Shown here: positions 1-14,534 of the stretch, one piece after another
Layout of the letters: each line of letters starts with the position of its first letter
Position numbering within the stretch: position 1 is the stretch's first letter
NCBI GenBank assembly: GCA_028865845.1
Contig: JAGWJK010000012.1
Span: 1 to 15,624 of the forward strand
Source: Rhizobiaceae bacterium
GTDB taxonomy: Bacteria > Pseudomonadota > Alphaproteobacteria > Rhizobiales > Rhizobiaceae
DNA length: 15,624 nt
Direction: 5' to 3'
Program-made: the position numbers and the translations under genes
Notes under the pieces: model-generated
Seen by the model: only the letters and a program-made list of their open reading frames with translations
What the model was told of the DNA's origin: nothing
Databases searched by the model: none

Positions 1-2
1 TG

Positions 3-404
3 CGCCGGCTGATGCTCGGCATGAGCCAGGAGCGTCTGGCCGAACAGATCGGCGTCACCTTCCAACAGGTGCAGAAATACGAAAAAGGCACCAACCGCAT
101 CGGTGCCAGCCGCCTCCAGTCGATTGCAGGAGTGCTGGCTGTTCCTGTCGCATTCTTCTTCCAGCAGGACAATTCCCAGCCGTTGACGACGGAAGGCCTC
201 GGCGCAATCAGCGGCCTTGAGGACCTGTCCGAATTCCTGACCTCCAAGGAAGGTCTGAGCCTCAACAAAGCCTTCATGAAAATCACCGATCCCGGCGTCC
301 GCCAATCGGTGCTGATGCTGATCAAATCTCTTGCCAACGCTTCCGAACCGACAATCGCGCATGCGCTTCCCGCTGCCGACATGCCTTTCGGCCTTCGGAA
401 TTGA
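3..404 (+). CDS. XRE-family (PraR-like) helix-turn-helix regulator, 5' truncated by window edge
   Basis: The frame is open from base 3 (R-R-L then MLGMSQERL), and no start codon with a ribosome site precedes it, so the true start lies left of the window. The visible 133 residues begin inside a cro/C1-type helix-turn-helix: LGMSQERLAEQIGVTFQQVQ, then KYEKGTNRIGASRLQSIAGV, then a VPVAFFF segment. This pattern is typical of the rhizobial PraR-like XRE family, whose members usually carry about 20 more N-terminal residues. The C-terminal half has no recognised domain (LTSKEGLSLNKAFMKITDP region). It is expected to be a cytoplasmic DNA-binding repressor or modulator. Its targets cannot be told from the sequence. 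A hairpin follows 6 nt after the stop, and the next gene starts 191 bp away, so it is probably a separate transcription unit from the RiPP locus. Confidence 0.9.
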   Translation, partial: RRLMLGMSQERLAEQIGVTFQQVQKYEKGTNRIGASRLQSIAGVLAVPVAFFFQQDNSQPLTTEGLGAISGLEDLSEFLTSKEGLSLNKAFMKITDPGVRQSVLMLIKSLANASEPTIAHALPAADMPFGLRN

Positions 405-410
405 CCTTCA

Positions 411-439
411 CGCCTCACCCGGTGAAACCAGGTGAGGCG
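411..439 (+). terminator. Hairpin after the XRE gene, possible terminator
   Basis: A perfect 9-bp inverted repeat (CGCCTCACC / GGTGAGGCG) with an 11-nt loop starts 6 nt after the stop codon. No T-run follows, so it is not a textbook intrinsic terminator. It could still end or protect the upstream transcript. The rest of 440-595 shows no gene I can support and presumably holds the promoter of the next regulator; I could not pick convincing -35/-10 boxes. Confidence 0.4.
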
Positions 440-595
440 CGGCTTACGGCCTATGATGGACCGGGCGCAAACAGACAGTGCGATGCCGACGAATGCAGAC
501 AAACACAATGACCGCTGTGCGACGCTTAGGTGTTGGTGAACGACATCGGGTGATCGCGAGCAACATCAGGACGCTGCAGGGCGCAGTGGAGTTGC

Positions 596-2545
596 ATGGA
601 TTTCAGGCTGCTGACATTCGGAGACCTGCGTCTTGTCGACGGAACGGGCTCGACAGTACCTTTTCCGGAAAAGGGGCTGTTGTCGGCCTGCTTTCTGCTG
701 ACCGGTCCTTCGCCGCAGAAATCGCGTTCCGAGCTTGCTGAATTTCTCTGGGGCGACATAGCGACCGATAAGGCGCTCGCCAATCTCAGGCAGACCCTTT
801 CCCGCGTCAAGAACCGCCAGGACGAACTTGGCGTCGAGCTGCTGCTGATCGAGCAGAGCACGGTCAGCGTCAATAGGGACGCCTTAACCAACGATCTTTC
901 CATCCTCGGCGCCGTCTCCAGCGATCCGCAGATCGCGCTCGAAGAACTGCTGCAACTTGGACGTTGGGATTTTTTGGCCCGCACCGAAGTCATCGGCAGC
1001 CTTGCCCGGACATGGCTTCGCACGCAGCGCGACCGCATCAAGACACAGATGCTGGCGACGCTGCGCGAGGCCATGGAAGGCCTTGCCGAGGATGCGGATG
1101 CGACGACCGTCAAGGAAGCCGCGCTGCGGTTGTTCGAGGCTCACCCCGACGACGAGGCGATCTATCAGCTGCTGGGTCAGGCCTATGCCGGCGAACCGCA
1201 GCTTGAAAGCGCGCGTCATATTTTCGAGAGCCGCAGGAAATATCGCTGGGGCGAACTGCAGGCCAATCCCGATCCGCAGACGCTGAACGTCGCCCGCCGC
1301 ATCTTCGAACGGCAGAGGGGCCTTGCACCCACGCCGGCACAGCCGGCAAGGCCGAAGATGGAAATCGTGCCGCCGACGCCGATCGGACCGCCCAAGCTCG
1401 TGCTTTTGCCGCCGGTCAACCTCACTGCGGACCACCAGATGGCGGCCTTCCTGTCGTCGTCGTTGCTGGAGGACATCACCGTCGGCCTCTGCGTGCTGAA
1501 GACGGTGACGATGGTGGCGCATTACACCGCCGAGAAGATCGCACTCGATATCGATCGCATCGCGACGCTGGAAAAACACGGCATCAACTATGTGCTCGAT
1601 ACCCGGCTGAGCTTCGACGGCAGCGCCTACTGGCTGTTCGCGCAGTTGATCTACGCGGGCAACGACGAGGTCATCTGGGCGGAGCGTTTCAGCATGGACG
1701 CCCACGACCTGCCGCGCCAGCATCGCGAGATCGCCCAAAGGATCGTCGCCTCGGTCGCAAGCTACATCGAACGCAACGAATTCTCCCGCGGCTACTTCGA
1801 GCGCAGCCCGGAAACCTATCATCAATATCTGCTTGGCCAGCGTTACTTGAAGGGTCTCGGCCTGCCGGACATTCGTCGGGCCCGCAAAGCCTTCCAGAAC
1901 GCGCTCAAGGAAAATCCTTATTTCTCGCCGGCGCTCAGCGGCATCGCGCGCACCTATCATCTGGAATGGCTGGTGACCGCACAGGGCAACGACAAACTGT
2001 TGGAGATTGCCGAGGAGCAGGCCGGCAAGGCGATCGCCACCGGCCAGGACATCGTGGGCGGCTACCATCAATTTGGTGTCGCCAAGCTTTACCAGTCAAA
2101 ATTCGACGAAAGCATCGATGCGTTCGAACTTGCCGAAACCATCAGCCCGCATTACGCCGACGTGATCGCCGATTATGCCGACACGCTGATGCACGCATCG
2201 AAGCCGGGTGAAGCCCTGAAAAAGGTCGAGCGTGCCATCAAGCTCAATCCGCTGAGCCCCGATCTCTATTTCTGGACCGCGGCGGGCGCCAATTATTGCC
2301 TGGAATGTTACGACGAGGCCAACGCCTACATAGCGCGCATGGCCGATCCCGCGCAGGCCTCGCGTCTTGCCGCTGCCAGCGCCGCTATGGCGGGCAATAT
2401 GCGCAAAGCCAAGGCCCTGGTACGCCAGGTCAAGGAAACCTACCCGGATTTCGAGGTCGATACCTGGCTGTCCATTGTTCCCTTTCGCGAGCAATGGCAG
2501 ACCGATCTCTATCGGGAAGGGCTGAAACGAGCAGGCTTCAAGTAG
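596..2545 (+). CDS. SARP/BTAD-type transcriptional activator with C-terminal TPRs
   Basis: 649 aa. Residues 1-100 match the OmpR-like winged-helix of SARP regulators: LLTFGDLRLVDG, then the SRSELAEFLWGD and KALANLRQTLSRVK segments. Residues about 105-240 form the bacterial transcriptional activation domain, with the characteristic GRWDFLA and LARTWLRTQRDRI stretches. A Pro-rich linker (about 244-266) leads to an alpha/beta segment (about 267-395, KLVLLPPVNLTADHQMAAFL) like the TolB/FlgO-type module found in HilA/CadC- and cyclase-linked regulators. TPR-like helices fill about 420-640, for example 424-454, 502-523 and 521-552. There is no transmembrane segment, so it should act in the cytoplasm. 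The ATG has a modest GTGGAG site 5 nt upstream. It lies 95 bp before the candidate precursor on the same strand and is the obvious candidate activator of that cluster. What the sensory half binds is unknown. Confidence 0.85.
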   Translation: MDFRLLTFGDLRLVDGTGSTVPFPEKGLLSACFLLTGPSPQKSRSELAEFLWGDIATDKALANLRQTLSRVKNRQDELGVELLLIEQSTVSVNRDALTNDLSILGAVSSDPQIALEELLQLGRWDFLARTEVIGSLARTWLRTQRDRIKTQMLATLREAMEGLAEDADATTVKEAALRLFEAHPDDEAIYQLLGQAYAGEPQLESARHIFESRRKYRWGELQANPDPQTLNVARRIFERQRGLAPTPAQPARPKMEIVPPTPIGPPKLVLLPPVNLTADHQMAAFLSSSLLEDITVGLCVLKTVTMVAHYTAEKIALDIDRIATLEKHGINYVLDTRLSFDGSAYWLFAQLIYAGNDEVIWAERFSMDAHDLPRQHREIAQRIVASVASYIERNEFSRGYFERSPETYHQYLLGQRYLKGLGLPDIRRARKAFQNALKENPYFSPALSGIARTYHLEWLVTAQGNDKLLEIAEEQAGKAIATGQDIVGGYHQFGVAKLYQSKFDESIDAFELAETISPHYADVIADYADTLMHASKPGEALKKVERAIKLNPLSPDLYFWTAAGANYCLECYDEANAYIARMADPAQASRLAAASAAMAGNMRKAKALVRQVKETYPDFEVDTWLSIVPFREQWQTDLYREGLKRAGFK

Positions 2546-2640
2546 CATCTTCGCATAGCATCGCGTCCACACAGCGTATGGGTCTTCTGAAAATCGGCTC
2601 TGATTTCCGAGGCATGCGCAAACAAGGAAAGACACTGAAA

Positions 2641-3006
2641 ATGGCAAACATTATCGTTTTTGGCATTCCTGGCGATACGCAACTTTATTTGGCTGACCTT
2701 GCCGCCGGAACGGTCGCCCCGCTCAACGTCCCGCCCGGTAGCGACCTCGGCGTGGCCGATCAGCTGCGCAGGTCGGGAGCGACCATCACCAAGGGCGTGA
2801 ACCTCGCGGTAACCGTCGGCAGCGGCGCCAGCGCCAGCGCCGGCAGAATGGACGATGTGGCGAGCAACAGGATGGACGAAGGTCCTGCGGCTGGCCGGAT
2901 GGACGAAAGCCCCGCCGGCGGCAGAATGGACGAAGGCCCGGCGAGCGGCAGGATGGACGAAGGTGCGGCAAGCGGCAGGATGGATAACGACTCGACCGAC
3001 AAGTAG
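2641..3006 (+). CDS. Candidate multi-core RiPP precursor peptide with RMD repeats
   Basis: 121 aa, with no family I recognise by name. Residues 1-67 are a leader-like region starting MANIIVFGIPGDTQLYLADL, with no signal peptide or transmembrane helix. Residues 69-121 contain six tandem units starting with RMD: RMDDVASN, RMDEGPAAG, RMDESPAGG, RMDEGPASG, RMDEGAASG, RMDNDSTDK. The period is 9 residues (8 for the first). There is no Cys anywhere, and the units hold few or no Ser/Thr, so azoline formation is unlikely to be the main modification. A YcaO gene starts 22 nt downstream and a TfuA-like gene follows, the context expected of a thioamidated multi-core precursor. The start at 2641 is preceded by AAGGAAAG (9 nt spacing). 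In-frame ATGs at 2578 and 2614 would add 21 or 9 residues but have poorer sites. The precursor role is inferred from repeats plus context. Confidence 0.75.
   Translation: MANIIVFGIPGDTQLYLADLAAGTVAPLNVPPGSDLGVADQLRRSGATITKGVNLAVTVGSGASASAGRMDDVASNRMDEGPAAGRMDESPAGGRMDEGPASGRMDEGAASGRMDNDSTDK
2845..3003 (+). repeat. Six tandem coding repeats, 27-nt period, in the precursor gene
   Basis: Arg codons of successive RMD units fall at 2845, 2869, 2896, 2923, 2950 and 2977, giving spacings of 24 then 27, 27, 27, 27 nt. The Arg codon varies (AGA, AGG, CGG, AGA, AGG, AGG) while ATG-GAC is kept in five units (ATG-GAT in the sixth). The repeats are therefore conserved at protein level rather than as recent exact DNA copies. 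The first and last units are the most diverged. Confidence 0.9.
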
Positions 3007-3028
3007 ATCCGAATAGCCGATACCTGAC

Positions 3029-4303
3029 GTGGTGACGATTACGACGCCATCAACCCTTCCCTTTTCGGATCCCCTGCACCGGGGGTCCGAAGGGCAATCT
3101 TTTGGCGCCGCCTCGTCGGCCTATTCCGATCGCACCTGCTCCGCCGAAGAGACCTTTCGGCGGATCGAACCCTTTCTCAAAACCCACGGCGTCACGCGCC
3201 TTGGCCGTCTGACCGGGCTCGACAATATAGGCATTCCCGTCTGGCAGGCGATCAGTCCGAACGCCAGATCGATCGTCATCAACAACGGCAAGGGCATTAA
3301 CGATCTCGACGCCAAGGTCTCCGCTGCGATGGAAGCCCTGGAACGGACGGTCGCTGGCACTCCCGTTGTAAAGACGATCACGGCGAGCCGGCGGCAACTG
3401 ACAGCGGAGGGCACTCTCGCCGATCCGCTGCCCTCGCTGATTGCCCGCGGACAACAGGATATCGGCGATGATGAGGAAATAGCCTGGGCCGAAGGCTACG
3501 ACGTGATCGCCGATCGCAGAGCCTTTGTGCCTTTCTCGGCGATCACGCTCGACCGCACGATCGCCCAGTCGCGTTTCTGGCAATCCTCCGATGGGCTGGC
3601 TTCCGGAAATGTGCTCCCGGAAGCAATCCTGCACGGTCTGCTTGAGCGCATCGAGCGCGATGCCGAAGTGCTGTGGGATGTGTCGGAACCGCGATTGCGC
3701 ATGGACGCCTGCATCGACCCGGCTTCTCTGGAAGATCCAGTGCTCGACGGACTGGTGTCGAAGGTAACCGCCGCTGGTCTCACCTTGCAGATGTTCGACA
3801 TTACCAGCGATATCGGCATTCCCGTCATCGTCGTACTCATCGGGCCTGGCGACATGACGAAGCGACGGCGGCACCGCTATCTCGACGTCATCATCGGCAG
3901 CGGCGCGCATCCGTCGAAAGTACGGGCAGCGATAAGGGCCGTGACCGAAGCGGCGCAATCGCGCCTGACCTTCATCAGCGGCGCCCGCGACGATATTCCG
4001 CCCGAGAATTTCACCCGCGACCTGCCGGAACACATTCGCCGCTCTTTCGAAGCAACCCCGAAGCCTGTACGCAAGGCCGAGGCCGACGAACCGCTGCCGG
4101 GCGGCGCCGAGGCCTTGTTACGGCGAACCATCGAACGCATGCGTGCGGCGGGGATTACATCAGCCATCGCCCTTTCGCTCGGCGACCCCTCGCTGCCGTT
4201 CGCGGTTGCCAAGGTCATTGTCCCCCAACTCGAAAATCCGATCGGAGAGCGCAAGCGTCGGTTCGGCTATCGCGCCATCTCCAAAACGCTGCAGCTGCTA
4301 TGA
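3029..4303 (+). CDS. YcaO-domain ATP-dependent peptide-backbone modifying enzyme
   Basis: 424 aa, a usual length for stand-alone YcaO proteins. YcaO hallmarks in order: LGRLTGLDNIGIPVWQAISP (58-77), GKG (87-89), SAAMEALE (98-105, ATP/Mg-binding Glu residues), GLASGNVLPEAILHGLLERI (189-208) running into ERDA (209-212), SGAHPSKVRAAIRAVTEAAQ (291-310) and SGARDD (317-322). The family activates backbone amides by ATP-dependent phosphorylation, giving azolines, amidines or thioamides. The C-terminus ends YRAISKTLQLL and lacks the PxPxP tail typical of azoline cyclodehydratases. There is no E1-like/ocin-ThiF partner, but a TfuA-like gene overlaps the stop. This supports thioamidation of the upstream peptide, by inference. 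The start is GTG 3029 (or GTG 3032), with no strong ribosome site. Translation may be coupled to the precursor 22 nt upstream. Confidence 0.93.
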   Translation: MVTITTPSTLPFSDPLHRGSEGQSFGAASSAYSDRTCSAEETFRRIEPFLKTHGVTRLGRLTGLDNIGIPVWQAISPNARSIVINNGKGINDLDAKVSAAMEALERTVAGTPVVKTITASRRQLTAEGTLADPLPSLIARGQQDIGDDEEIAWAEGYDVIADRRAFVPFSAITLDRTIAQSRFWQSSDGLASGNVLPEAILHGLLERIERDAEVLWDVSEPRLRMDACIDPASLEDPVLDGLVSKVTAAGLTLQMFDITSDIGIPVIVVLIGPGDMTKRRRHRYLDVIIGSGAHPSKVRAAIRAVTEAAQSRLTFISGARDDIPPENFTRDLPEHIRRSFEATPKPVRKAEADEPLPGGAEALLRRTIERMRAAGITSAIALSLGDPSLPFAVAKVIVPQLENPIGERKRRFGYRAISKTLQLL

Positions 4304-5025
4304 AGATCCTGTTTGTCGGCCCCACGCTCCCCGATGCCGCCTCGATCGCTTCGCCGGATATTTTCCTGCGCCCGCCGGCCCAGCGCGGCGACATCGTCAA
4401 GGCGATGCAGGACGGCGCCAATGCGATCGGCCTGATCGACGGACTGTTCGAGAACGTTCCGCCGATATGGCACAAGGAAATCCTGTTCGCGATCTCCAAA
4501 GGCGTCGCCGTTTACGGCGCCGCCAGCATGGGCGCCTTGCGCGCCGCCGAATGCGCCGCCTTCGGGATGATCGGCATCGGCCGCATTTTCGAAGATTACG
4601 CCTCCGGCGCACTCGTGGATGATTCCGCAGTCGCGCAAATTCATGGACCCGCCGAGCTTGGCTATCTTCCGCTCAGCGAGCCGCTGGTCAACGTGAAGAC
4701 AACTTTGGAGAGCCTCGTCGAGGCCGGCGCCATCGATGATATGGAGCATCGGGCGCTGCTTTTGCGCGCCGAAACCATGTTCTTCAAGTCACTCACCTAC
4801 CGCTCGCTGGCTCAGTCCGTCGAATTGCCGGACCCCGCGCGCCGCAAGGCAATCTCAGCCCTTCTTCGCCATCATGCCGTCAATCAAAAACGCGCAGACG
4901 CACTCGAATTGCTCGATGTTCTGGCCGCTTGCCCCAACGAACGGCAGCAACCGCCACGCGATTGGAGCTTTCAGGCCAACAGTTTGTGGCGCTTCGCCTT
5001 TCACCATCTTGAAATTGCATCATAA
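4300..5025 (+). CDS. TfuA-like protein, YcaO partner
   Basis: 241 aa. The start ATG overlaps the ycaO stop in an ATGA, indicating translational coupling. The open frame extends upstream inside ycaO, but homology-type sequence begins only at MKILFVGPTL. The TfuA core (PF07812 type) is clear: RPPAQRGDI (24-32), GLIDGLFENVPPIWHKEILF (44-63), then VYGAASMGALRAAE (71-84), FGMIGIGRIFEDY (88-100) and an acidic DD (107-108) before VAQIHGPAELGY (111-122). The C-terminal 110 residues are helical and less conserved. TfuA was named from the trifolitoxin locus of Rhizobium. With YcaO it is needed for thioamide formation in McrA and thiovarsolin-type peptides, probably in sulfur delivery or activation of YcaO. 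The cluster has no separate sulfurtransferase, so sulfur would come from general metabolism. Confidence 0.92.
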   Translation: MKILFVGPTLPDAASIASPDIFLRPPAQRGDIVKAMQDGANAIGLIDGLFENVPPIWHKEILFAISKGVAVYGAASMGALRAAECAAFGMIGIGRIFEDYASGALVDDSAVAQIHGPAELGYLPLSEPLVNVKTTLESLVEAGAIDDMEHRALLLRAETMFFKSLTYRSLAQSVELPDPARRKAISALLRHHAVNQKRADALELLDVLAACPNERQQPPRDWSFQANSLWRFAFHHLEIAS

Positions 5026-5159
5026 AATTCCCGCGCAATCCCACCTCGTGTCACGCCGTATGTCACGCGCCAGAAATGCGGACTTACGCTAAGGTATCCT
5101 TATGTTCTTGGCGATGTGTATCTCGTTCGCCATGAGCATTAAGGCAAAGGGATTTTCAG

Positions 5160-5402
5160 ATGAGCGCAATACTTCCTTTCGAAATGGCAAGTCAGGATTC
5201 GGAGTCGTTAAAAGAGCTGGCATCGATCGCACGGATGATCACGTACGCGCGCCAAAGCGCAAAAAGCCTGAACGCGGATTTCCCGGTCTGGTGCCTGGAT
5301 CTCGCACTCGGCGCCGTGCTGCAGGAAATGTATGCGAACGGCCTGCAGGTGCCGCTCTTTGAAGAAGGTGCGGACAAAGCCAACATGGCGGTCGCACACT
5401 GA
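5160..5402 (+). CDS. Small protein of unknown function
   Basis: 80 aa: MSAILPFEMASQDSESLKEL start, predicted mostly helical, with a hydrophobic core around FPVWCLDLALGAVLQEMYAN (residues about 41-60). It has one Cys and one Trp adjacent in that core, and no signal peptide or transmembrane helix. An AAAGGGA site lies 7 nt before the ATG, which decides the start. It follows tfuA by 134 bp on the same strand. That gap contains an 8-bp direct repeat (TGTCACGC at 5049 and 5061) and a small TAAGG-TAT-CCTTA dyad (5090-5102), so it may have its own promoter. I do not recognise the family. Composition and the ribosome site argue it is real. Membership of the RiPP cluster is possible but unproven. Confidence 0.65.
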   Translation: MSAILPFEMASQDSESLKELASIARMITYARQSAKSLNADFPVWCLDLALGAVLQEMYANGLQVPLFEEGADKANMAVAH

Positions 5403-5453
5403 AAATAATTTAGGTTCTGCTTCGGTCGAACCATTGCGAGTTTTTATGATCAT

Positions 5454-5718
5454 GCAATTCCAGGCGAAGGATCGGTTCGCACTTTCTGGAATTGCTCGAA
5501 GCGCGCCACAGTCCGGAATGGGCGCGCTGACAGTTTGAAACCGTGCCACAGGTGATGTCCGTCCTCTTCGACCAAAGAGGACAAATGCGCAGTGCGGTTT
5601 CCGAGTTTCTGGCGGGGGGCCGGAGAAAGATGCTGGTGTGGTTCTTTGAGCCACGCCGGCATCGCTCTTGAATGAACTAACCAAGCGCCGCGCGATTTCT
5701 CAATTGCGTGGCGCTTTT
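5454..5718 (+). ncRNA. Possible structured RNA or palindromic intergenic element
   Basis: The stretch 5403-5699 holds no gene I can support but is unusually rich in inverted repeats. H1 is 5454-5463/5486-5495 (GCAATTCCAG/CTGGAATTGC) with an inner GCGAA/TTCGC stem. H2 is 5500-5507/5521-5528 (AGCGCGCC/GGCGCGCT). H3 is 5537-5543/5595-5601 (GAAACCG/CGGTTTC), enclosing a perfect 8-bp hairpin at 5561-5582. H4 is 5629-5641/5651-5663, 13 bp with two G.U pairs. H5 is the terminator at 5683-5718. A TATGAT box at 5445-5450 sits just before H1, but no good -35 is seen. G.U pairs in H4 and H5 form only in plus-strand RNA, which suggests plus-strand transcription. Alternatives are a RIME-like mosaic repeat or the 3' UTR of the 80-aa gene. 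I could not match it to a named RNA. Confidence 0.35.
5683..5718 (+). terminator. Stem-loop with T-run between convergent units
   Basis: An 11-bp stem (AAGCGCCGCGC at 5683-5693 / GCGTGGCGCTT at 5706-5716, one G.U pair) has a 12-nt loop and ends in CTTTT. It reads as an intrinsic terminator for plus-strand transcripts arriving from the 80-aa gene or the structured region. It overlaps the last codons and stop of tetR on the minus strand and could also act weakly in that direction. Confidence 0.55.
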
Positions 5719-6383
5719 GGCTGAATGCCGCTGACAAAGATGGCGATACATTGCCGCAGATGGCGCAGCCGGGTCTCGCGGTCTGGCCAGTCGTTCGGTT
5801 TGCCGGGAAGCGAAATCATCGCCCCGAAGATCATGTTCATCAGCATCCGTGCGCCGCTCATGGTATCGGCGATTTCGATCCGTCCGCGCTTACGCTGCAG
5901 CGTGAGCCAATCGGCAAGCATCTGGCGCGACTGCTCGGCACCGTGCGTGCGCAACAGCGCGGCGATCTCGGGAAACTGCTGCGCCTCGTTCATGATGAGG
6001 TGGATGAACGCTTCCCGCTCCCGCTCGGCCTGCTCATCGATATCGATCATGAAAATCTGCTCGAGCACGTCGCAAAGCGGCAGATTCTCGTTGGAATCTC
6101 GCGGCAAGGCCAGCATCGAGGCGCGATGATCGGCGATGATCGCCATGAAGAGATCGGTCTTGCTGGAAAATAGCCGATAGAGGGTCTGCTTCGAAATCTT
6201 GCAGCGGGCGGCGACGAGATCCATTGTCGTTCCGCCATAGCCGAACTCGTGAAACGTCGCGCGGGCCTCAGTAGTGATGTCAACCCTGCGTTCGTCGTCG
6301 GTCAGCGTCTTCGGACGGCCGCGCGGTCGGCAAGCGGCAGGTTGAACGGCCTCGCTTGCTCCCGCCCCCGTTCGTGAATCCAT
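5700..6383 (-). CDS. TetR/AcrR-family repressor of the adjacent RND pump
   Basis: 227 aa from ATG 6383. After a basic, Pro/Arg-rich N-terminus (RPRGRPKTLTDDERR, residues 19-33) comes the TetR helix-turn-helix: ATFHEFGYGGTTMDLVAARC (42-61), then KISKQTLYRLFSSKTDLFMA (62-81). The C-terminal domain (about 90-227) is the variable ligand-binding part, AcrR-like. It is divergently transcribed from the efflux operon with 138 bp between the chosen starts, the standard layout for a local pump repressor such as AcrR, SmeR or AmeR. An ATG at 6428 would add 15 residues but would place coding sequence over the predicted operator. The start at 6383 has GGGG 5 nt upstream. Expected role: binds the intergenic operator and is released by toxic small molecules. 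The ligand is unknown. Confidence 0.9.
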   Translation of the reverse strand: MDSRTGAGASEAVQPAACRPRGRPKTLTDDERRVDITTEARATFHEFGYGGTTMDLVAARCKISKQTLYRLFSSKTDLFMAIIADHRASMLALPRDSNENLPLCDVLEQIFMIDIDEQAEREREAFIHLIMNEAQQFPEIAALLRTHGAEQSRQMLADWLTLQRKRGRIEIADTMSGARMLMNMIFGAMISLPGKPNDWPDRETRLRHLRQCIAIFVSGIQPKAPRN

Positions 6384-6407
6384 CTTAACCCCATGCGCCG
6401 AATAAGA

Positions 6408-6458
6408 TTGACAATTACGGCGTTCCAAATATTTTCCGTACTATTTGGTACTGTAATT
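6408..6458 (+). promoter_or_regulatory. Efflux operon promoter with overlapping TetR operator
   Basis: TTGACA (6408-6413) and TATTTT (6430-6435), 16 bp apart, form a plausible sigma-70-type promoter for the pump genes. A perfect 7-bp inverted repeat CCAAATA (6425-6431) / TATTTGG (6442-6448) with a 10-bp spacer covers the -10. A second, almost concentric dyad AATTAC (6413-6418) / GTAATT (6453-6458) surrounds it. The position over the -10 fits repression of the pump, and probably autoregulation, by the divergent TetR protein. Confidence 0.6.
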
Positions 6459-6521
6459 AAGGCAACAGGAAATAGCAACGTGGGAAAGTTCGTCTCCTCA
6501 ACCCCTGAATCCGTACGTCCC

Positions 6522-7793
6522 ATGGCGTTGAAACGCCTGCCGGTCGTCCGGACATGTCTGATTGCCGCAGGGGTCGCCGCCACGATGCTGCTTGCCGGCT
6601 GCAACCAGCAGAAGTCTGCCCAATCGGGCGCGCCCGCCGTCAAGCCGGAAGTGAGCGCCATGGCGCTGCACCCGCAATCGGTGGCCATTACCGCCGAGCT
6701 GCCGGGCCGCACGAGCGCCTATCTGATCGCCGAGGTGCGGCCGCAGGTCGGCGGCATCATCCGCGCCCGCAACTTCAAGGAAGGCAGCGAGGTCAAGGCC
6801 GGTGACGTGCTCTACGAAATCGATCCTTCGTCCTACCAGGCCGCTTACGACAGCGCCGCCGCCGCTCTGCAGAAGGCGCAGGGCGCCGTGCCCAGCGCGC
6901 AGGCCAAGCTTGACCGCTACAAGGGCCTCAGCCAGCCGAACGCAGTGAGCCAGCAGGATTTCGACGACGCGCAATCGAGCCTCGTGCAGGCGCAGGCCGA
7001 TGTCGCCTCCGCGAAGGCCGCGCTTGAAACCGCCCGCATCAATCTCGACTACACCAAGATGCGCGCGCCAATCAGCGGCCGCGTCGATGCCTCGACCGTA
7101 ACGGTCGGCGCTCTGGTGACCGCAGATCAAACGACGGCGCTGACGACCATTCGCGAGCTCGATCCGATCAACGTCGACGTCACGCAGTCCAGCACCAACC
7201 TCCTGGAGTTTCGCCGCGCCATCGAAGAAGGCCGGTTGAAGACGAGCGGCGACAACGTCTCGGTCCATCTGACGCTGGAAGACGGCTCGGAATACAAGCA
7301 GACCGGCAAGCTGGAATTCTCCGAGGCTGCCGTCGCCGAGACAGTCGGAACCGTTACAGTCCGCGCCGTATTCCCCAATCCGGACCGGGTACTGCTGCCG
7401 GGCATGTACGTTCGCGCCTCCATCGAGGAAGGCATTGCCGAAAACAGCTATCTCGTTCCGCAGCGCGCGGTTTTCCGCAACACCAAGGGTGAAGCGACGG
7501 CGATGTTCGTGACACCTGACGGCAAGGTGCAGCAGCGCGTGCTGAAGGTACAGCGCAACATCGGCAACAGCTGGCTCGTCAACGAGGGCATTGCCGATGG
7601 CGACCGCGTCGTCGTCGAAGGCGCCCAGCGCGTCCGCGACGGTCAGGACGTCACCGCCGTCAACGTGACCATCGACGATGCCACCGGCCTCACCAAGCAG
7701 GCCGCGGCAGCCGACGCCAAACCGGCTGAACAGGCCGGCCTTGAAAAGGGCGACGGCAAGGCCGAGCCCGGCGCTGCAGGTTCCCAGAAGTAG
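6522..7793 (+). CDS. RND efflux periplasmic adaptor lipoprotein (AcrA/MexA/SmeA type)
   Basis: 423 aa. The N-terminus MALKRLPVVR is followed by a hydrophobic stretch and lipobox LLAGC (Cys27), so it should be an inner-membrane-anchored periplasmic lipoprotein. Membrane-fusion-protein parts in order: first beta-barrel/lipoyl half (about 45-100, with VRPQVGGIIRARNFKEGSEV), alpha-hairpin (about 103-172, Ala/Gln-rich heptads), second lipoyl half (RAPISGRVDA, 181-190), then beta-barrel and membrane-proximal domains. The tail is Ala/Glu/Lys-rich. It bridges the RND pump to a TolC-like outer-membrane channel; no channel gene is present here. A GTG at 6480, with AGGA 9 nt upstream, would add 14 residues before the signal peptide and is a real alternative start. 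The transporter gene follows after 9 nt, so this is a two-gene operon. Confidence 0.95.
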   Translation: MALKRLPVVRTCLIAAGVAATMLLAGCNQQKSAQSGAPAVKPEVSAMALHPQSVAITAELPGRTSAYLIAEVRPQVGGIIRARNFKEGSEVKAGDVLYEIDPSSYQAAYDSAAAALQKAQGAVPSAQAKLDRYKGLSQPNAVSQQDFDDAQSSLVQAQADVASAKAALETARINLDYTKMRAPISGRVDASTVTVGALVTADQTTALTTIRELDPINVDVTQSSTNLLEFRRAIEEGRLKTSGDNVSVHLTLEDGSEYKQTGKLEFSEAAVAETVGTVTVRAVFPNPDRVLLPGMYVRASIEEGIAENSYLVPQRAVFRNTKGEATAMFVTPDGKVQQRVLKVQRNIGNSWLVNEGIADGDRVVVEGAQRVRDGQDVTAVNVTIDDATGLTKQAAAADAKPAEQAGLEKGDGKAEPGAAGSQK

Positions 7794-7802
7794 AGGTGAA
7801 CG

Positions 7803-10800
7803 ATGTCACGGTTTTTCATCGATCGCCCGATCTTTGCCTGGGTCATAGCGATCGTCATCATGCTTGCGGGTCTGCTGTCGATCACGACGCTGTCGATCTC
7901 GCAATATCCGCAGATCGCGCCGACCACGGTGCGCATTTCCGCCACCTATCCCGGCGCTGACGCCCAGACGGTCGAAAACTCGGTGACCAAGGTCATCGAG
8001 CAGGGCATGACAGGTATCGACAATCTCGACTACATGGCCTCGACCTCGACCTCGACCGGCCAGGCATCGATATCGCTCACCTTCAACAACAAGGCCGACG
8101 CCGACGTTGCGCAGATGCAGGTGCAGAACAAGCTGCAGCTCGTCACCGCGCAGCTGCCGCAATCGGTGCAGACGACCGGTATCGTCGTTTCCAAGTCGAC
8201 CTCGAACTTCTTGATGGTCGTCGGCTTCGTCTCGACCGACGGCAAGCTCAATTCCAACGACCTTGCCGACTATGTATCCAGTACCCTCAACGACACGCTG
8301 AAGCGTATCGAAGGCGTCGGCGACACCCAGATCTTCGGTGCCGGCTATGCCATGCGCATCTGGGTCAACCCGGATAAGCTCGCCAAGTATCAGTTGATGG
8401 TCAGCGACGTTACCAACGCTATCGAGGCGCAGAACACGCAGGTTTCCGCCGGCCAGCTCGGCGCCCTGCCGCAGCGCCAGGGCCAGCAGCTGAATGCCAC
8501 GGTGACGGCGAAGAGCCGCCTGCAGACGCCGGAGCAGTTCGAAAACATCATCCTGAAGAGCCAGTCGAACGGCTCGCTGGTGCGCCTCAACGACGTCGCC
8601 ACCGTCGAGCTCGGCGCTTCCTCCTACACGAGCTCGAGCACCTACAACGGCCAGCAGGCCGCCGGTCTTGCCGTCATGCTCGCGTCGGGCGCCAACGCCA
8701 TCAGCACGGCGGAAGCCGTGCAGTCGACCATCGACGGCCTCAGGCAGACGCTGCCGCCGAACGTCGACGTCGTCTACGCCTACGACACCACGCCCTTCGT
8801 CAAACTGTCGATCGAAGACGTGGTAAAGACGCTGTTCGAAGCGATCGTGCTCGTCTTCATCGTCATGTTCATCTTCCTGCAGAACATCCGCGCAACCCTG
8901 ATCCCGACGCTTGCCGTCCCGGTCGTCCTGCTCGGCACGTTCGGGGTGCTTTCCGTCTTCGGCTATTCGATCAACACCCTCACCATGTTCGGCATGGTGC
9001 TGGCGATCGGTCTGCTGGTCGACGACGCGATCGTCGTCGTCGAAAACGTCGAACGCGTGATGGAGGAGGAACACCTTTCGCCGCGCGAGGCGACGATCAA
9101 ATCGATGCAGGAAATCACCGGCGCACTGATCGGTATCGCGACGGTGTTGTCGGCGGTGTTTATCCCGATGGCCTTCTTCTCAGGCTCGGTCGGCGTCATC
9201 TACCGCCAGTTCTCGGTGACCATCGTTTCGGCGATGGTGCTCTCCGTCATCGTCGCCTTGATCCTGACCCCTGCCCTTTGTGCCACCATTCTCAAGAAGC
9301 CGCAGCACGGCGCCAAGGAACGCGGCATCTTCGGCTGGTTCAACCGCAATTTCGAGCGCGGCACGCTGCGTTACCAGCGCGGCATCAGCTTCATGATCCG
9401 CCGCTCCAGTATCTTCCTGATCCTGTTCGTGCTGATCGCAGGCGGCGTCGGTTACCTCTTCAACCGCCTGCCGAGCTCGTTCCTGCCGGACGAAGACCAG
9501 GGCATTCTGCTCACCGCAGTGCAGCTCCCGCCGGGCGCGACGGACGCCCGCACCAAGGCCGTGCTCGACCAGGTGCGCAACTACTACACCACGACCGAGA
9601 AGGATTACGTCCAGGGCGTGTTCGCCGTCGCCGGCTTCGGCTTCAGCGGACAGGGCCAGAACGTCGGTCTTGTCTTCGTGAAGCTCAAGGATTTCGCCGA
9701 CCGCACCGCGCCGCAGGCCAAGGCGCAGGCGATCGCCGGCCGCGCCATGGGCGCCTTCTCGAAGATCAAGGACGGTAGCGTCTTTGCACTGGCGCCGCCG
9801 GCCATTCCCGGCTTTGGCAGCTCCAGCGGCTTCGATTTCTACATCAAGGACATCAACGGCGCCGGCCATGAAAAGCTGATCGCAGCCCGCAATCAGCTTC
9901 TGGGTGCCGCCGGCAAGGATGCAAAGCTGTTCGGCACCCGTCCGAACGGACAGGAGGATACGCCGCAATATTCCGTCAACATCGACCAGGAAAAAGCGAG
10001 CGCCCTCAACATCAACCTTGCCGATATCGACTCCACGCTGTCGACCGCCTGGGGCGGTACCTATGTCAACGACTTCATCGATCGCGGCCGCGTCAAGCCG
10101 GTCTATGTCCAGGCCGATAAGGATTTCCGCATGCAGCCGTCGGACTTCGACCGCTGGTATGTCCGGAATTCCGACGGCGCCATGGTGCCTTTCTCGGCCT
10201 TCGCCAGCGGCAGCTGGACCTACGGTTCGCCACGCCTCGAGCGCTACAACGGCTCTTCGGCCGTCGAAATCCAGGGTGCGGCCGCACCAGGCGTATCGTC
10301 CGGCGATGCGATGAACGAGATCGACAACATCATGTCGCAGCTGCCGCAGGGCTTCAGCCACGAATGGACCAGCCTCTCGGCCCAGGAAAAGCTCTCCGGC
10401 AACCAGGCGACCCAGCTTTACGCCATCTCGATCCTGGTCGTGTTCCTTGCGCTTGCCGCGCTTTACGAGAGCTGGTCGATCCCGCTCGCCGTCATGCTGT
10501 CGGTTCCGATCGGCATCTTCGGCGCGCTGCTCGGCGCAACCCTCTTCGGTCAGTCGAACGACGTCTATTTCAAGGTCGGCCTGCTGACGACGATCGGTCT
10601 TGCCGCCAAGAACGCCATCCTGATCGTGGAATTCGCCATCGAACAGCAACGATCGGGCAAGGAACTGATCCCCGCGACGCTCGAAGCGGCCCGCCAGCGC
10701 CTGCGCCCGATCCTGATGACCTCGCTCGCCTTCATCCTCGGCGTTCTGCCGCTGGCAATCGCGCACGGCGCCGGTTCCGGCAGCCAGAACTCGATCGGTA

Positions 10801-10949
10801 TCGGCGTCATGGGCGGCATGATTTCGGCAACCGTGCTCGGCGTCTTCTTCATCCCGCTGCTCTTCGTCTCCGTCCGCCGGATCTTCAAGGGCAAGACCCG
10901 GGATGCAGGCACGCCCGCAGAGGAGCCCACGCCCGACACGGGACATTGA
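7803..10949 (+). CDS. RND multidrug efflux transporter, HAE1 family (AcrB/MexB/SmeB type)
   Basis: 1048 aa, full length for the family. It opens with the canonical [20 protein letters not shown]. The large periplasmic loops (about 30-330 and 560-870) hold porter and docking domains, and 12 membrane helices are expected. Proton-relay residues are present: Asp407-Asp408 in [13 protein letters not shown] (TM4) and Lys936 in [13 protein letters not shown] (TM10). The start follows a GAGGTGA site that overlaps the adaptor stop codon. It forms a homotrimer in the inner membrane and pumps drugs, detergents or plant phenolics/flavonoids out, driven by proton flow. Rhizobial relatives include SmeAB and BepDE-type pumps, but substrate cannot be predicted. 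The outer-membrane channel must be encoded elsewhere. It is regulated by the divergent TetR. Confidence 0.97.
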
Positions 10950-11002
10950 TGGCCTTGGGCCTGCTCATATCGAGCGGGGCACAATTCGAGGCGAATGATA
11001 AT

Positions 11003-11038
11003 GGCGCTTCCGCACTATCGCGGAGGCGCCAATTTTTT
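11003..11038 (+). terminator. Intrinsic terminator of the efflux operon
   Basis: An 11-bp stem (GGCGCTTCCGC / GCGGAGGCGCC, one G.U pair) with a 6-nt ACTATC loop is followed by AATTTTTT. It lies 53 bp after the transporter stop. This is the strongest rho-independent terminator in the window. Confidence 0.9.
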
Positions 11039-11076
11039 AAGGTGACGATCCGACAAATCGGACAACTGCCACAGCA

Positions 11077-11117
11077 TTGAAAACCTGGCTATCGATGATT
11101 AATCTGCAATCGTTGAT
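11077..11117 (+). promoter_or_regulatory. Possible promoter and direct-repeat operator of the antitoxin-like gene
   Basis: TTGAAA (11077-11082) is followed 17 bp later by a weak TAATCT (11100-11105). Two near-identical 9-mers, ATCGATGAT (11091-11099) and ATCGTTGAT (11109-11117), start 18 bp apart and bracket the -10. Ribbon-helix-helix antitoxins commonly repress their own promoter through repeated half-sites, so autoregulation is plausible. The -10 match is poor. Confidence 0.3.
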
Positions 11118-11131
11118 GGCAGGAGGGTTTT

Positions 11132-11377
11132 GTGGCCAGTATAACCATCCACAAAATCGATGAGTCTCTCAAAGCGCGGCTATGCACGCGCGCCGCCACT
11201 CACGGGCGCACGATGGAAGACGAAGCCAGAGAGATATTGCGGGCAGCACTTTTGACGGAAGACAAAGGCGAGCTGAACCTGACGGAAAGCATAGGCCGTC
11301 GCATGGCGAAAACCGGCGGCGTCACCTTGGCGATTTCGCCACGCGAGTTCATTCGGCCGATCGATCTCGCCGAATAA
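11132..11377 (+). CDS. FitA/Arc-like ribbon-helix-helix antitoxin-type protein, orphan
   Basis: 81 aa from a GTG start with an excellent AGGAGGG site 4 nt upstream. Residues 1-43 form a ribbon-helix-helix: strand MASITIHKID, helix ESLKARLCTRAATHG, then RTMEDEAREILRAALL, the pattern of FitA/VapB-type antitoxins. The remaining residues (SIGRRMAKTGGVTLAISPRE and after) would be the toxin-wrapping tail. In FitAB-type modules a PIN-domain RNase toxin gene normally overlaps or follows directly. Here only 47 bp separate the stop from the end of the convergent RND gene, and no toxin lies upstream. It is therefore a solitary antitoxin-like gene, either a relic, a regulator of its own, or an antitoxin acting on a toxin encoded elsewhere. 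Confidence 0.8.
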   Translation: MASITIHKIDESLKARLCTRAATHGRTMEDEAREILRAALLTEDKGELNLTESIGRRMAKTGGVTLAISPREFIRPIDLAE

Positions 11378-11393
11378 TCATACTCGATCGCTT

Positions 11394-11417
11394 GGGAATA
11401 TCACGGTTGATATTCCC
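11394..11417. terminator. Perfect hairpin between convergent genes
   Basis: GGGAATATC (11394-11402) and GATATTCCC (11409-11417) form a perfect 9-bp stem with a 6-nt loop. It is placed exactly between the convergent antitoxin-like and MdtC-like genes. No T-run follows on either strand, so it is probably a weak bidirectional terminator or transcript-end stabiliser. Confidence 0.45.
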
Positions 11418-11424
11418 GGTGTCC

Positions 11425-14400
11425 TCACGTCGAAGCAGGTGCGGTCAGCTGCCGCACCGACCAGCGCTTGTGGAGCTTGGCGAGCATCAGATAGATGATC
11501 GGCGTGGTGTAGAGCGTCAGCACCTGCGACACGATCAGGCCACCGACGATGGTGATGCCGAGTGGGCGGCGTAGCTCCGCTCCAGGCCCCTCCGCGACGA
11601 TCAGCGGGATTGCGCCCATCAGCGCCGCCAGAGTGGTCATCAGGATCGGGCGGAACCGCTTGAGGCAGGCCTCGTAGATCGCGTCTTCCGACGACATGCC
11701 ATGCTTGCGTTCGCCCTGTAGCGCGAAATCCACCATCATGATGCCGTTCTTCTTGACGATGCCGATCAGGAGAATGATGCCGATGAAGGCGATGATCGTC
11801 AGTTCCGTGCCGCTGATTGCAAGCGCGAGCAAGGCGCCAAGGCCGGCAGACGGCAGCGTCGAGATGATCGTCAGCGGGTGCGCCAGGCTCTCATAGAGAA
11901 TGCCGAGCACGATGTAGACCGCGAGAAGCGCTGCCAGCAACAGCAACGGCTGGCTGCTTGAGGATTGCGTTGCGCTTGCCGCATCGCCGGCAAAATCCGC
12001 ATGCAGCGTATCGGGCAGATGCATGCCGAGCACGGCTTTCTGGATAGCGTCGTTGGCGACTTCGATCGGCGTGTTGAGGGCGAGATTGTAGGAAATCGTC
12101 ACGGCCGGATATTGCCCCTGGTGATTGACCACCAGGGGCGCCAGCGTGCGCTCGATCGAGGCGACGGCGCTGAGCGGAACCTGCGTGCCATCGGCGGCAG
12201 GCACGTAGAGATTGGCGATCTCCTTGGGATCGCGGGCATAGTCCGGATCTGCTTCCAGCACGACGCGATATTGATTGCGCTGGGTGTAGATCGTCGAAAC
12301 CTGCCGCTGCGCGAAGGCGTTGTTCAGCGCACTGTCGATCGACTGGATGCTGACGCCGAGGCGAGAGGCTTCGCTGCGGTTGATATCGACGGTCGCCTGC
12401 AGCCCGTTTGGCTGACGGTCGGTCGCGACATCCGTAAGTTCGCTCAACCCCTGCAATTGCTCCAGCACCTTTGGAGCCCATTCCACCATCTCGTCGTAAT
12501 TCGCGTCCCAAAGCGTGAACTGATACTGCGATTGCGACGAGCGCGCGCCGGCGCGGATATCGCCCGGCGAAAACAGGAAAGTGCTGAGCCCCGGAATCGC
12601 CATCAGCTGCTTACGCAGCCGGTCGATCACCTCGGCGGTCGAGACGCGTTCCGAGGCCGGCTTCAGCGAAATCAGCAAGGAGCCGCGATTGACGGAGCTG
12701 GCAAAGCCGCCGCCGCCTACCGATGAACCAAGACCGGCGACAGCCGGGTCCTTGGCGACGATCGCGGCTGCCTGCTCCTGCAGCTTGACCATGGCTGGAT
12801 AGGAAATATCAGTCGCCGCCTGCGTGCCGCCCTGGATGAAGCCGGTATCGTCCTGCGGAATGAACGCCTTCGGCACCTTGACGTAGAGATAGGCGGACAT
12901 GACGACGCAGGCGAGAATGACGAGAACCGACATGACCCGATGGTGCAGCACTGCCTTCAGCGTGCGGCCATAGAAATTGGTGATCGCGCCGAGCGTTCCC
13001 TCGACGATGCGGCCGAAAAGGCCGGGGCGGGCTTCCAGGTCATGGGCACGAAGCCGATGGCCGCAGATCATCGGCGTCAGCGTCAGCGATACCAGCGTCG
13101 AGACGATGATGGTGAAGCCGAGCGTCAGCGAAAAGGTCTGGAAGAAGCGGCCGACGATGCCGCCCATGAAAAACAGCGGAATGAAGGCTGCGAGCAGCGA
13201 CACACTGATCGACACGACGGTAAAGCCGATCTGCTTGGCGCCCTCGAGCGCCGCCTTCATCGGCTTCATCCCGGTTTCGAGATTGGCGTAGATGTTTTCG
13301 ATCATCACGATCGCATCGTCGACGACGAAGCCCACCGAGACCGCAAGCGCCATAAGCGACAGATTGTCGATCGACAGGCCAAACAGCCACATGGCGGCGA
13401 AGGTGCCCGCCAGCGATAGCGGTACCGTGACGCCAGCGGCAAAGGTCGGCGTCGCGCGCCGTAGAAAGACGAAGACCACGCCCATGACGAGGCAGATCGT
13501 CGCCAGTAGCGTCCACTGCATGTCCGTGACGCTCGCATGGATCGTCGTGGTGCGGTCGTTGAGAACGGCGATATGCACGCCGGCCGGGATCAGCCGCTGC
13601 AGCTCCGGGATCAGCTCCTTGACGCCATCGACCGTGGAGATAACGTTCGCATCCGCCTCCTTGGTGATGTTGAGCAGCACGGCGGGTTTGCCGTCGTACC
13701 AGGCATCCGAGCGGCTGTTGCGCACGCCGGGCTCGACGGTGGCGATATCGGAGAGGCGAACAGCCGTGCCGTCGCCGCTGCGTACGATGATGTTGCCGTA
13801 GTCCTCCGGTGTCCGCAGCTGACCGTTGATGGCAATGGAGAAGGCTGCATTGCTGCCGTCGATCGAGCCGATCGGGCCGAGCACGCTGGCATTGACGATG
13901 GCGGTGCGAACGGCGTCGAGCGATAGACCCATGGCCGATAGGCGATCGGGGTCGAGCCTGACACGCACGGCGGGCTGGTCGGCGCCGCTCACGGTTACGC
14001 CACCGACGCCGTCCACCTGCGAAATGCGCTGCACCACCACCGTATCGGCGGCGTCATAAATGGCGCTTGGGGATACGTTGTCCGATGTCAACGCGAGGAT
14101 CAGCACGGGTGCTGCGGCAGGGTTGATCTTGCGGAAGGAGGGCAATGTCGGCAGATCGCCCGGCAGGTCGGTCGCCGCCGCGTTGAGTGCCGCCTGCACA
14201 TCCTGCGCCGCGCCGTCGACACTGCGAGAAAGATCGAACTGCGCGACGATGCTACTGGTGCCGAGGGAACTTACTGACGTGAGCTGCGTGATGCCGGCGA
14301 TCGTGCCGAGATGTCGCTCCAGTGGCGCTGCGACGCTCGCCGCCATGCTGGCCGGGTCGGCGCCGGGGCGGCTCGCGGAGACGACGATGGTCGGCAGGTC

Positions 14401-14520
14401 GACGGTCGGCAGGCTCGCAACCGGCAGAAAATGATAGGCGACGATACCGAGAAGCGACAGCCCGATCGCCAGCAGCGTCGTTCCGACCGGACGTTTGATG
14501 AAAGGTTCGGAAAGGTTCAT
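11425..14520 (-). CDS. RND transporter subunit, MdtC/MuxC-like
   Basis: 1031 aa, full length. The N-terminus MNLSEPFIKRPVGTTLLAIG and the motif ASLPTVDLPTIVVSASRPGA are typical of the MdtB/MdtC branch of HAE1 pumps. The C-terminus (LYTTPIIYLMLAKLHKRW) also fits. Proton-relay residues are present: Asp401-Asp402 in VGFVVDDAIVMIEN (TM4) and the TM10 motif IVKKNGIMMVDFAL. It starts 14 nt after the stop of the upstream MdtB-like gene, with GGAAAGGGCGG as ribosome site, so the two are co-transcribed. In MdtABC/MuxABC systems the B and C subunits form a heterotrimer that needs an adaptor (MdtA/MuxA) and a TolC-type channel. The second-in-order position and sequence favour the C subunit. Known relatives export bile salts, novobiocin or plant compounds; the substrate here is unknown. 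Confidence 0.95.
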   Translation of the reverse strand: MNLSEPFIKRPVGTTLLAIGLSLLGIVAYHFLPVASLPTVDLPTIVVSASRPGADPASMAASVAAPLERHLGTIAGITQLTSVSSLGTSSIVAQFDLSRSVDGAAQDVQAALNAAATDLPGDLPTLPSFRKINPAAAPVLILALTSDNVSPSAIYDAADTVVVQRISQVDGVGGVTVSGADQPAVRVRLDPDRLSAMGLSLDAVRTAIVNASVLGPIGSIDGSNAAFSIAINGQLRTPEDYGNIIVRSGDGTAVRLSDIATVEPGVRNSRSDAWYDGKPAVLLNITKEADANVISTVDGVKELIPELQRLIPAGVHIAVLNDRTTTIHASVTDMQWTLLATICLVMGVVFVFLRRATPTFAAGVTVPLSLAGTFAAMWLFGLSIDNLSLMALAVSVGFVVDDAIVMIENIYANLETGMKPMKAALEGAKQIGFTVVSISVSLLAAFIPLFFMGGIVGRFFQTFSLTLGFTIIVSTLVSLTLTPMICGHRLRAHDLEARPGLFGRIVEGTLGAITNFYGRTLKAVLHHRVMSVLVILACVVMSAYLYVKVPKAFIPQDDTGFIQGGTQAATDISYPAMVKLQEQAAAIVAKDPAVAGLGSSVGGGGFASSVNRGSLLISLKPASERVSTAEVIDRLRKQLMAIPGLSTFLFSPGDIRAGARSSQSQYQFTLWDANYDEMVEWAPKVLEQLQGLSELTDVATDRQPNGLQATVDINRSEASRLGVSIQSIDSALNNAFAQRQVSTIYTQRNQYRVVLEADPDYARDPKEIANLYVPAADGTQVPLSAVASIERTLAPLVVNHQGQYPAVTISYNLALNTPIEVANDAIQKAVLGMHLPDTLHADFAGDAASATQSSSSQPLLLLAALLAVYIVLGILYESLAHPLTIISTLPSAGLGALLALAISGTELTIIAFIGIILLIGIVKKNGIMMVDFALQGERKHGMSSEDAIYEACLKRFRPILMTTLAALMGAIPLIVAEGPGAELRRPLGITIVGGLIVSQVLTLYTTPIIYLMLAKLHKRWSVRQLTAPAST

Positions 14521-14534
14521 GTCCCGCCCTTTCC

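Follow-up and report, generated by a model that had tools for sequence, protein, structure and literature searches.

The ribosomally synthesized and post-translationally modified peptides (RiPPs) known by 2021 to be thioamidated by a YcaO-TfuA enzyme pair all came from Actinobacteria, and the corresponding clusters of Rhizobium had no characterized products (Malit et al. 2021, PMC8120280; this and the other papers are cited here from excerpts). In the thiovarsolin system of Streptomyces varsoviensis, the genes varA, varY, varT and varO are sufficient, and the precursor family ranges from non-repeating members to members with five repeats; varA together with varY and varT is enough to yield tripeptides B and D, both thioamidated, whose release was ascribed to cellular peptidases (PMC6511847). 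Here we describe a YcaO-TfuA locus with a precursor gene of six Arg-Met-Asp (RMD) repeats in a stretch of 15,624 nucleotides from a Rhizobiaceae bacterium (GenBank assembly GCA_028865845.1, contig JAGWJK010000012.1, positions 1 to 15,624). This whole stretch is called the window below, and coordinates are those of the window. The central features are:

2641..3006, + strand: precursor peptide of 121 aa, with a leader of about residues 1-67 and six RMD core units in residues 69-115
2842..2985, + strand: repeated core region, six Gly/Asn-Arg-Met-Asp units plus linker, 24-27 nt apart
3029..4303, + strand: YcaO enzyme (Pfam PF02624, E=1.6e-64, all 325 profile positions covered)
4300..5025, + strand: TfuA (Pfam PF07812, E=1.3e-41)

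An earlier sequence-only reading of this DNA had described a compact three-gene layout, with the six-RMD gene, ycaO 22 nt further on and an ATGA overlap between ycaO and tfuA. All of this was confirmed: ycaO starts with a GTG at 3029, 22 nt past the precursor stop, and the ATGA joins the end of the YcaO frame to the start of TfuA. Its proposal of a RiPP with a repeated core made beside YcaO-TfuA gains support from the anatomy of the precursor family and from co-occurrence at the genome level. We put at about 0.78 the probability that the locus is a YcaO-TfuA RiPP cassette that thioamidates its repeated core to give short peptides, with an upstream regulator controlling the operon.

The locus shares with YcaO-TfuA thioamidated RiPPs in general the adjoining ycaO and tfuA genes and a linked small precursor with a conserved leader and a variable core. 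With the thiovarsolin system it has in common the enzyme pair, a leader followed by an imperfectly repeated core, a varying repeat number and the lack of a specific protease (PMC6511847). However, the thiovarsolin core is APR or GPR whereas that of the present family is G-x-x-[DE], the precursors being compared by description only, and neither APR nor GPR occurs in the window precursor. The present locus also differs in belonging to Hyphomicrobiales instead of Actinobacteria and in having a gene that resembles the Streptomyces antibiotic regulatory proteins (SARP) and encodes tetratricopeptide repeats (TPR). No heme-oxygenase-like gene corresponding to VarO was found among the ten window proteins scanned with Pfam, a general scan made without a VarO query. 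The StdGH pathway of Streptomyces thermodiastaticus likewise begins with the action of YcaO-TfuA on a short, conserved motif at the C-terminus, but there an Asn within SNKEWQE is thioamidated, further enzymes take part and the host belongs to a different phylum (PMC13174530).

The RMD motif stands at residues 69, 77, 86, 95, 104 and 113 of the window precursor, and Tandem Repeats Finder located an array with a 27/54-nt period at 2868-2984 (scores 127/148). When the residues of the precursor were shuffled, at least two RMD copies appeared in 17 of 20000 shuffles, the threshold being two copies and not six. Since the Arg codon differs between copies (AGA, AGG and CGG), the motif appears to be maintained at the protein level. 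The ATG at 2641 matches the start in 15 of the first 18 homologues, the remaining three having longer N-termini. The ratio of nonsynonymous to synonymous substitution rates (dN/dS) in the leader was about 0.10-0.24 in six pairs involving the window, at more than one synonymous change per site, and 0.09-0.41 in four further pairs. An orphan or chance repeat protein is ruled out by the homologues, the codon usage of the repeat and the selection on the leader. In the AlphaFold2 prediction, residues 4-44 form three strands and a helix, with a predicted local distance difference test score (pLDDT) of about 75-90 up to residue 50, followed by an unstructured tail; the whole model had a mean pLDDT of 68.6 and a predicted template modeling score (pTM) of 0.40.

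A search of 5.8 billion proteins initially retrieved 18 relatives of the precursor, and a broader profile found 76. Their conserved part, of about 60 aa, has the leader consensus MAxVVVIGxxGxxxLWxADLxAGTVxPL...KGVNLAV and is followed by a core, typically [ASG]-G-x-x-[DE], that occurs once near the C-terminus in most relatives (SGHYDG, SGVFDG and GGFMDG are examples). Tandem cores with differing letters (RLD, QFD, RFD, KFD, GYMD, GLHE, GKLE) are found in several Hyphomicrobiales lineages. Other families of the order retain a recognizable leader, but their repeats may diverge strongly, as in GGFFEAS x4, GLFERSE x6, RSDAASHIFYG x6, RSDAASHHYFPNRG x8 and SLSAASSHNWGEP x4, counted by eye with imperfect copies included; the core variants of these families are also given as GFFE, GLFERSE, SDAASHHYFPNR and SDAASHIFYG. 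Among 117 distinct precursors, which were drawn from searches and are not an even sample, the tail contains G-x-x-[DE] in 104 and a single copy of it in 63 of these 104. The core Gly is conserved at 90% or more in two alignments. Judged by its sequences, a conserved leader with a repeated, variable core is RiPP anatomy and the precursor is a real family. No precursor was found outside Hyphomicrobiales in a class-wide sample, where the single match in 337 genomes was the window's own; at most 14 candidates were scored per genome, so distant forms were possibly missed. In one locus (L119:2487-3214) we observed a tandem pair of leader-related open reading frames (ORFs) 5' of ycaO; four imperfect RSDxSDRAFSF units occur in the second of them.

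The composition of the core bears on the chemistry. Heterocyclizable core residues (Ser, Thr or Cys) characterize linear azol(in)e peptides and trifolitoxin-like peptides, and the thioamitides (thioviridamide-like) have core Cys plus Ser/Thr for an aminovinyl-methylcysteine (AviMeCys)-type ring. The present family is unlike both: of 193 G-x-x-[DE] cores, 8 have Ser, Thr or Cys in an x position, RMD has none of these residues, Cys is absent from the window precursor, and it occurs anywhere in the sequence in 3 of the 117 distinct relatives. The window precursor does have Ser in its linkers. The near absence of these residues from the core makes azoline formation there unlikely.

In a sample of 199 Rhizobiaceae genomes the precursor profile matched 27, TfuA was found in 54 and 145 had neither. 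All 27 precursor genomes also encode TfuA (Fisher p=1.1e-18, relatedness ignored). The count of 27 is a lower bound, as at least two more TfuA-positive genomes of the sample (G069 and G063) carry leader-related ORFs that were missed by the A1 profile. Of the 29 precursor loci of the sample, 26 have ycaO in the examined flank; TfuA is within 3 kb in 24. Among precursor loci from the order's other families, ycaO accompanies 14 of 15 and the fifteenth ends at a contig edge.

Both enzymes have relatives in the PDB, MJ1094 for YcaO (E=1.5e-35) and 6xp8 for TfuA (E=7.8e-31). TfuA is reported to use a thiocarboxylated ThiS homologue as sulfur source (PMC13063428), and ThiS is encoded in the window's genome. 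As thiovarsolin is the nearest tested analogue, we propose that each G-x-x-[DE] unit is thioamidated and that short peptides are then released. The predicted folded leader would present the unstructured C-terminal tail to YcaO, which would use ATP to activate the backbone amide while TfuA delivered sulfur, probably from thiocarboxylated ThiS. One thioamide would be formed in each Gly-x-x-Asp/Glu unit, with the near-invariant Gly as the best guess for the modified residue. Housekeeping peptidases could then free several short thioamidated peptides from one precursor molecule, a route also suggested for thiovarsolins. The SARP-TPR-like gene, which immediately precedes the precursor gene on the same strand, would regulate the presumably co-transcribed genes, and its protein may bind the product.

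Several observations weigh against this proposal. The best-scoring NCBIfam models belong to McrA-glycine thioamidation and neither curated cut-off was reached, YcaO scoring 201.3 bits against 365 for TIGR03266 and TfuA 174.7 bits against 235.2 for NF033432; besides, the substrate in that system is McrA whereas the linked substrate candidate here is a small peptide. Thirteen of the 117 precursors lack G-x-x-[DE], including Phyllobacterium-type tails ending ADVKMSxxDP, and so the motif is not definitive of the whole family. No gene for a protease or a RiPP recognition element (RRE) was recognized among the ten window proteins scanned by Pfam. The lack of a recognized protease, like the single C-terminal core on a predicted folded leader in most members, would suit a thioamidated product that stays whole, an uncleaved small protein with one or several thioamides acting inside the cell. 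We consider such a product improbable, given the history of the repeat. On a tree of 64 distinct YcaO sequences, well-supported branches require six or more changes of the repeat state, each either a gain or a loss, and recurrent gain or loss of tandem cores is typical of precursors cut into several products. (Identical rows of this tree were merged, repeat labels were assigned by eye, and nine locus rows were left out: L051 and L108-L111, with an open frame, L100, and the partial matches L112-L114.) Moreover, with Cys almost absent and Met and His not conserved in the cores, an uncleaved protein would have no obvious metal site.

Further points on the same side concern the enzymes and their placement. 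YcaO enzymes are able to install other modifications, several chemistries being known for them (PMC13063428). The YcaO might thus make another backbone change, such as an azoline or an amidine, or might have another substrate, the repeat protein being a bystander. We judge this very unlikely, because a TfuA partner is present, the x-x positions of the core are almost without Ser, Thr and Cys, and precursor and TfuA go together in every one of the 27 genomes. As to placement, ycaO is present in the examined stretch of 15 of the 23 loci from named genomes and absent from that of the other eight, and in two genomes (G045 and G138) ycaO adjoins the precursor and TfuA is encoded elsewhere in the genome.

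The sequence-only reading had expected that precursor homologues would not commonly occur apart from ycaO-tfuA. Taken locus by locus they do, in the eight named-genome loci without ycaO and in the 5 of 29 sample loci without TfuA within 3 kb. Taken genome by genome they do not: TfuA accompanies the precursor in all 27 genomes, and it is encoded elsewhere in each of the 11 genomes with solo loci that were checked; G149, included in this check, has it as well. In seven of these 11 genomes (G200, G201, G202, G203, G204, G003 and G009) a second precursor lies beside YcaO-TfuA. In the other four (G199, G205, G206 and G029, the last an assembly of 1890 contigs) YcaO-TfuA has no recognized precursor within 7.5-8 kb. 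The YcaOs of these four fall within the precursor-linked part of the YcaO tree, which suggests that YcaO-TfuA probably acts there in trans on the precursors of the solo loci. Two cassettes (L134 and L135) have the regulator, the precursor, ycaO and the downstream small ORF, with tfuA not in place and TfuA elsewhere in the genomes.

The locus is larger than the sequence-only reading had stated: it missed the regulator upstream of the precursor, and the syntenic unit also has one gene at either end:

12..404, + strand: HTH_3 (XRE-type) helix-turn-helix (HTH) gene (Pfam HTH_3, E=1.3e-11), which heads the conserved neighborhood
596..2545, + strand: SARP-like regulator (Pfam TPR_19, E=1.8e-9; BTAD 21.1 bits against a cut-off of 22.1)
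5160..5402, + strand: ORF of 80 aa conserved 3' of tfuA, a probable cassette gene by co-occurrence

The regulator appears to consist of an N-terminal winged-helix and BTAD-like part, a middle strand-rich domain and C-terminal TPR helices. It gave a weak match to AfsR in the PDB (E=0.038), and its AlphaFold2 model (mean pLDDT 80, pTM 0.45) has a secondary structure consistent with SARP and a helical C-terminal half. A relative lies within 1 kb of the precursor in 29 of 29 sample loci; every one of the 23 named-genome loci has one too, as do all 15 loci taken from other families of the order. A profile built from linked regulators, used at a threshold of E<=1e-60 chosen by the analyst, matched 62 places in 50 of the 199 genomes, and 49 of these 50 encode TfuA. 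Within 8 kb of TfuA lie 48 of the 62 places, and 19 of 67 TfuA matches have no such regulator within that distance. Some loci consist of the regulator-precursor pair alone. A comparison of the ORFs of five solo loci against all 11 showed this pair as the sole element common throughout; L017 and L018, from near-identical genomes, share their surroundings, and there are matches of an HTH gene and of two isolated ORFs, each confined to a single pair of loci.

A constant regulator and two-gene modules make a receptor-signal reading attractive. The RNPP peptide receptors have a TPR fold. In Gram-positive bacteria they are regulators under the control of imported small peptides (PMC3601965). By analogy, the SARP-TPR protein might be a cytoplasmic receptor of the modified core, and the solo regulator-precursor pairs extra receptor-signal pairs served in trans by one enzyme pair. 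Scattered, exchangeable pairs would then constitute a Gram-negative form of cell-cell signaling by thioamidated peptides, in which divergence and repetition of the core set the identity and dose of the signal. The constancy of the regulator beside the precursor and in TfuA-encoding genomes, its C-terminal TPR helices and the fact that this pair is all that the solo loci have in common favor such a role, as does the close match between the solo core ALSGHYDG and the cassette core ALSGHVDG in G201, G202 and G203. We advance it tentatively all the same, because no exporter or importer was recognized in the cassette and a cluster-situated regulator can work without a ligand. In addition, leader divergence in 17 loci followed YcaO rather than the regulator (partial correlations of 0.37 and 0.04, with no significance test), so that co-evolution of leader and regulator beyond the effect of YcaO is unsupported. 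Unlike the RNPP receptors, the protein has a SARP-like DNA-binding part, its peptide is predicted to be modified and its host is Gram-negative. Signaling would complement, not exclude, thioamidation by YcaO-TfuA.

Phazolicin and trifolitoxin are YcaO-derived. Both are modified rhizobial peptides with narrow-spectrum antirhizobial activity (PMC9670871), and the product of the window locus could similarly be a secreted antagonist of related rhizobia with no signaling role. Variation of the core sequences between lineages fits this idea, but no immunity gene or dedicated transporter was recognized in the conserved unit, whose neighbors were sought with the window genes only. From 5700 to 15623 the window carries TetR, HlyD-type and resistance-nodulation-division (RND)-type efflux genes. 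The position of the TetR-HlyD-RND set is conserved in a single group of Rhizobium loci, and on that ground the neighboring pump and TetR were rejected as part of the system, which also makes the antagonist role doubtful, if possible.

The 80-aa ORF has matches in 21 of the 199 genomes, every one of them TfuA-positive, and by comparison of coordinates 18 of its 22 matches lie within 1 kb of a TfuA match; it is a probable further gene of the cassette. A relative of the HTH gene stands just 5' of the TPR gene in 19 of 19 loci having regulator, precursor, ycaO and tfuA, a count in which L085 is the same place as L003; when loci were compared with the window genes, no HTH relative was found in L013 or L084. 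The HTH gene, the regulator and the small ORF belong to the syntenic unit, and membership of the HTH gene in the functional unit is uncertain. Positions 405-595, 5' of the regulator, are partially conserved across ten loci. Inspection by eye showed repeated GTGATYGC-like words in this region, possible operator repeats, but no operator site was established. The source genome of the window is 82% complete and consists of 1324 contigs.

The suggestion that the class may be undescribed stands in part. No description of the leader family, of the regulator pairing or of the trans arrangement appeared among the matches listed in a literature search, which covered titles and abstract openings and left subscription journals mostly outside its scope. 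Nor does the excerpted text of Malit et al. 2021 mention a leader or repeated core of this kind, a SARP-TPR partner or pairs served in trans (PMC8120280). Nevertheless, rhizobial YcaO-TfuA clusters were surveyed in that work, which reported more than 500 Rhizobium clusters with ycaO and tfuA and predicted 797 precursor families (PMC8120280). From these counts the locus type was probably flagged by software already, and the window's type is very likely among the clusters counted. The locus offers a defined family of precursors, the core of which can be predicted, and a minimal pathway of two enzymes suitable for reconstitution in E. coli, together with natural variants of repeat number and core; its constant regulator points to a function that can be tested. 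Should the regulator indeed read the product, thioamidated peptides would enter signaling.

Several loci with regulator, YcaO and TfuA lack the window-type precursor and have different small ORFs in that slot. In further rhizobial loci (L087:5560-5960, L078:1850-2260, L121, L131 and L133) the space between a SARP-TPR gene and YcaO-TfuA holds a second precursor-like type, about 42-52 aa long and ending LTHALRFR, VHALKFR or VHAVRFR. One cassette (L083:2350-2818) is without regulator and precursor; inspection by eye found 5' of its ycaO a fragment similar to the regulator's beginning. Another, short contig of the same fragmented genome (L132) carries the HTH gene, the regulator and the small ORF and no enzymes. 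In L122, L123, L124 and L128 the slot between the SARP-TPR gene and ycaO is filled by yet another linked ORF, a third type with a length of about 140-160 aa (FFIVGKKGFGVLFIRT... is one example).

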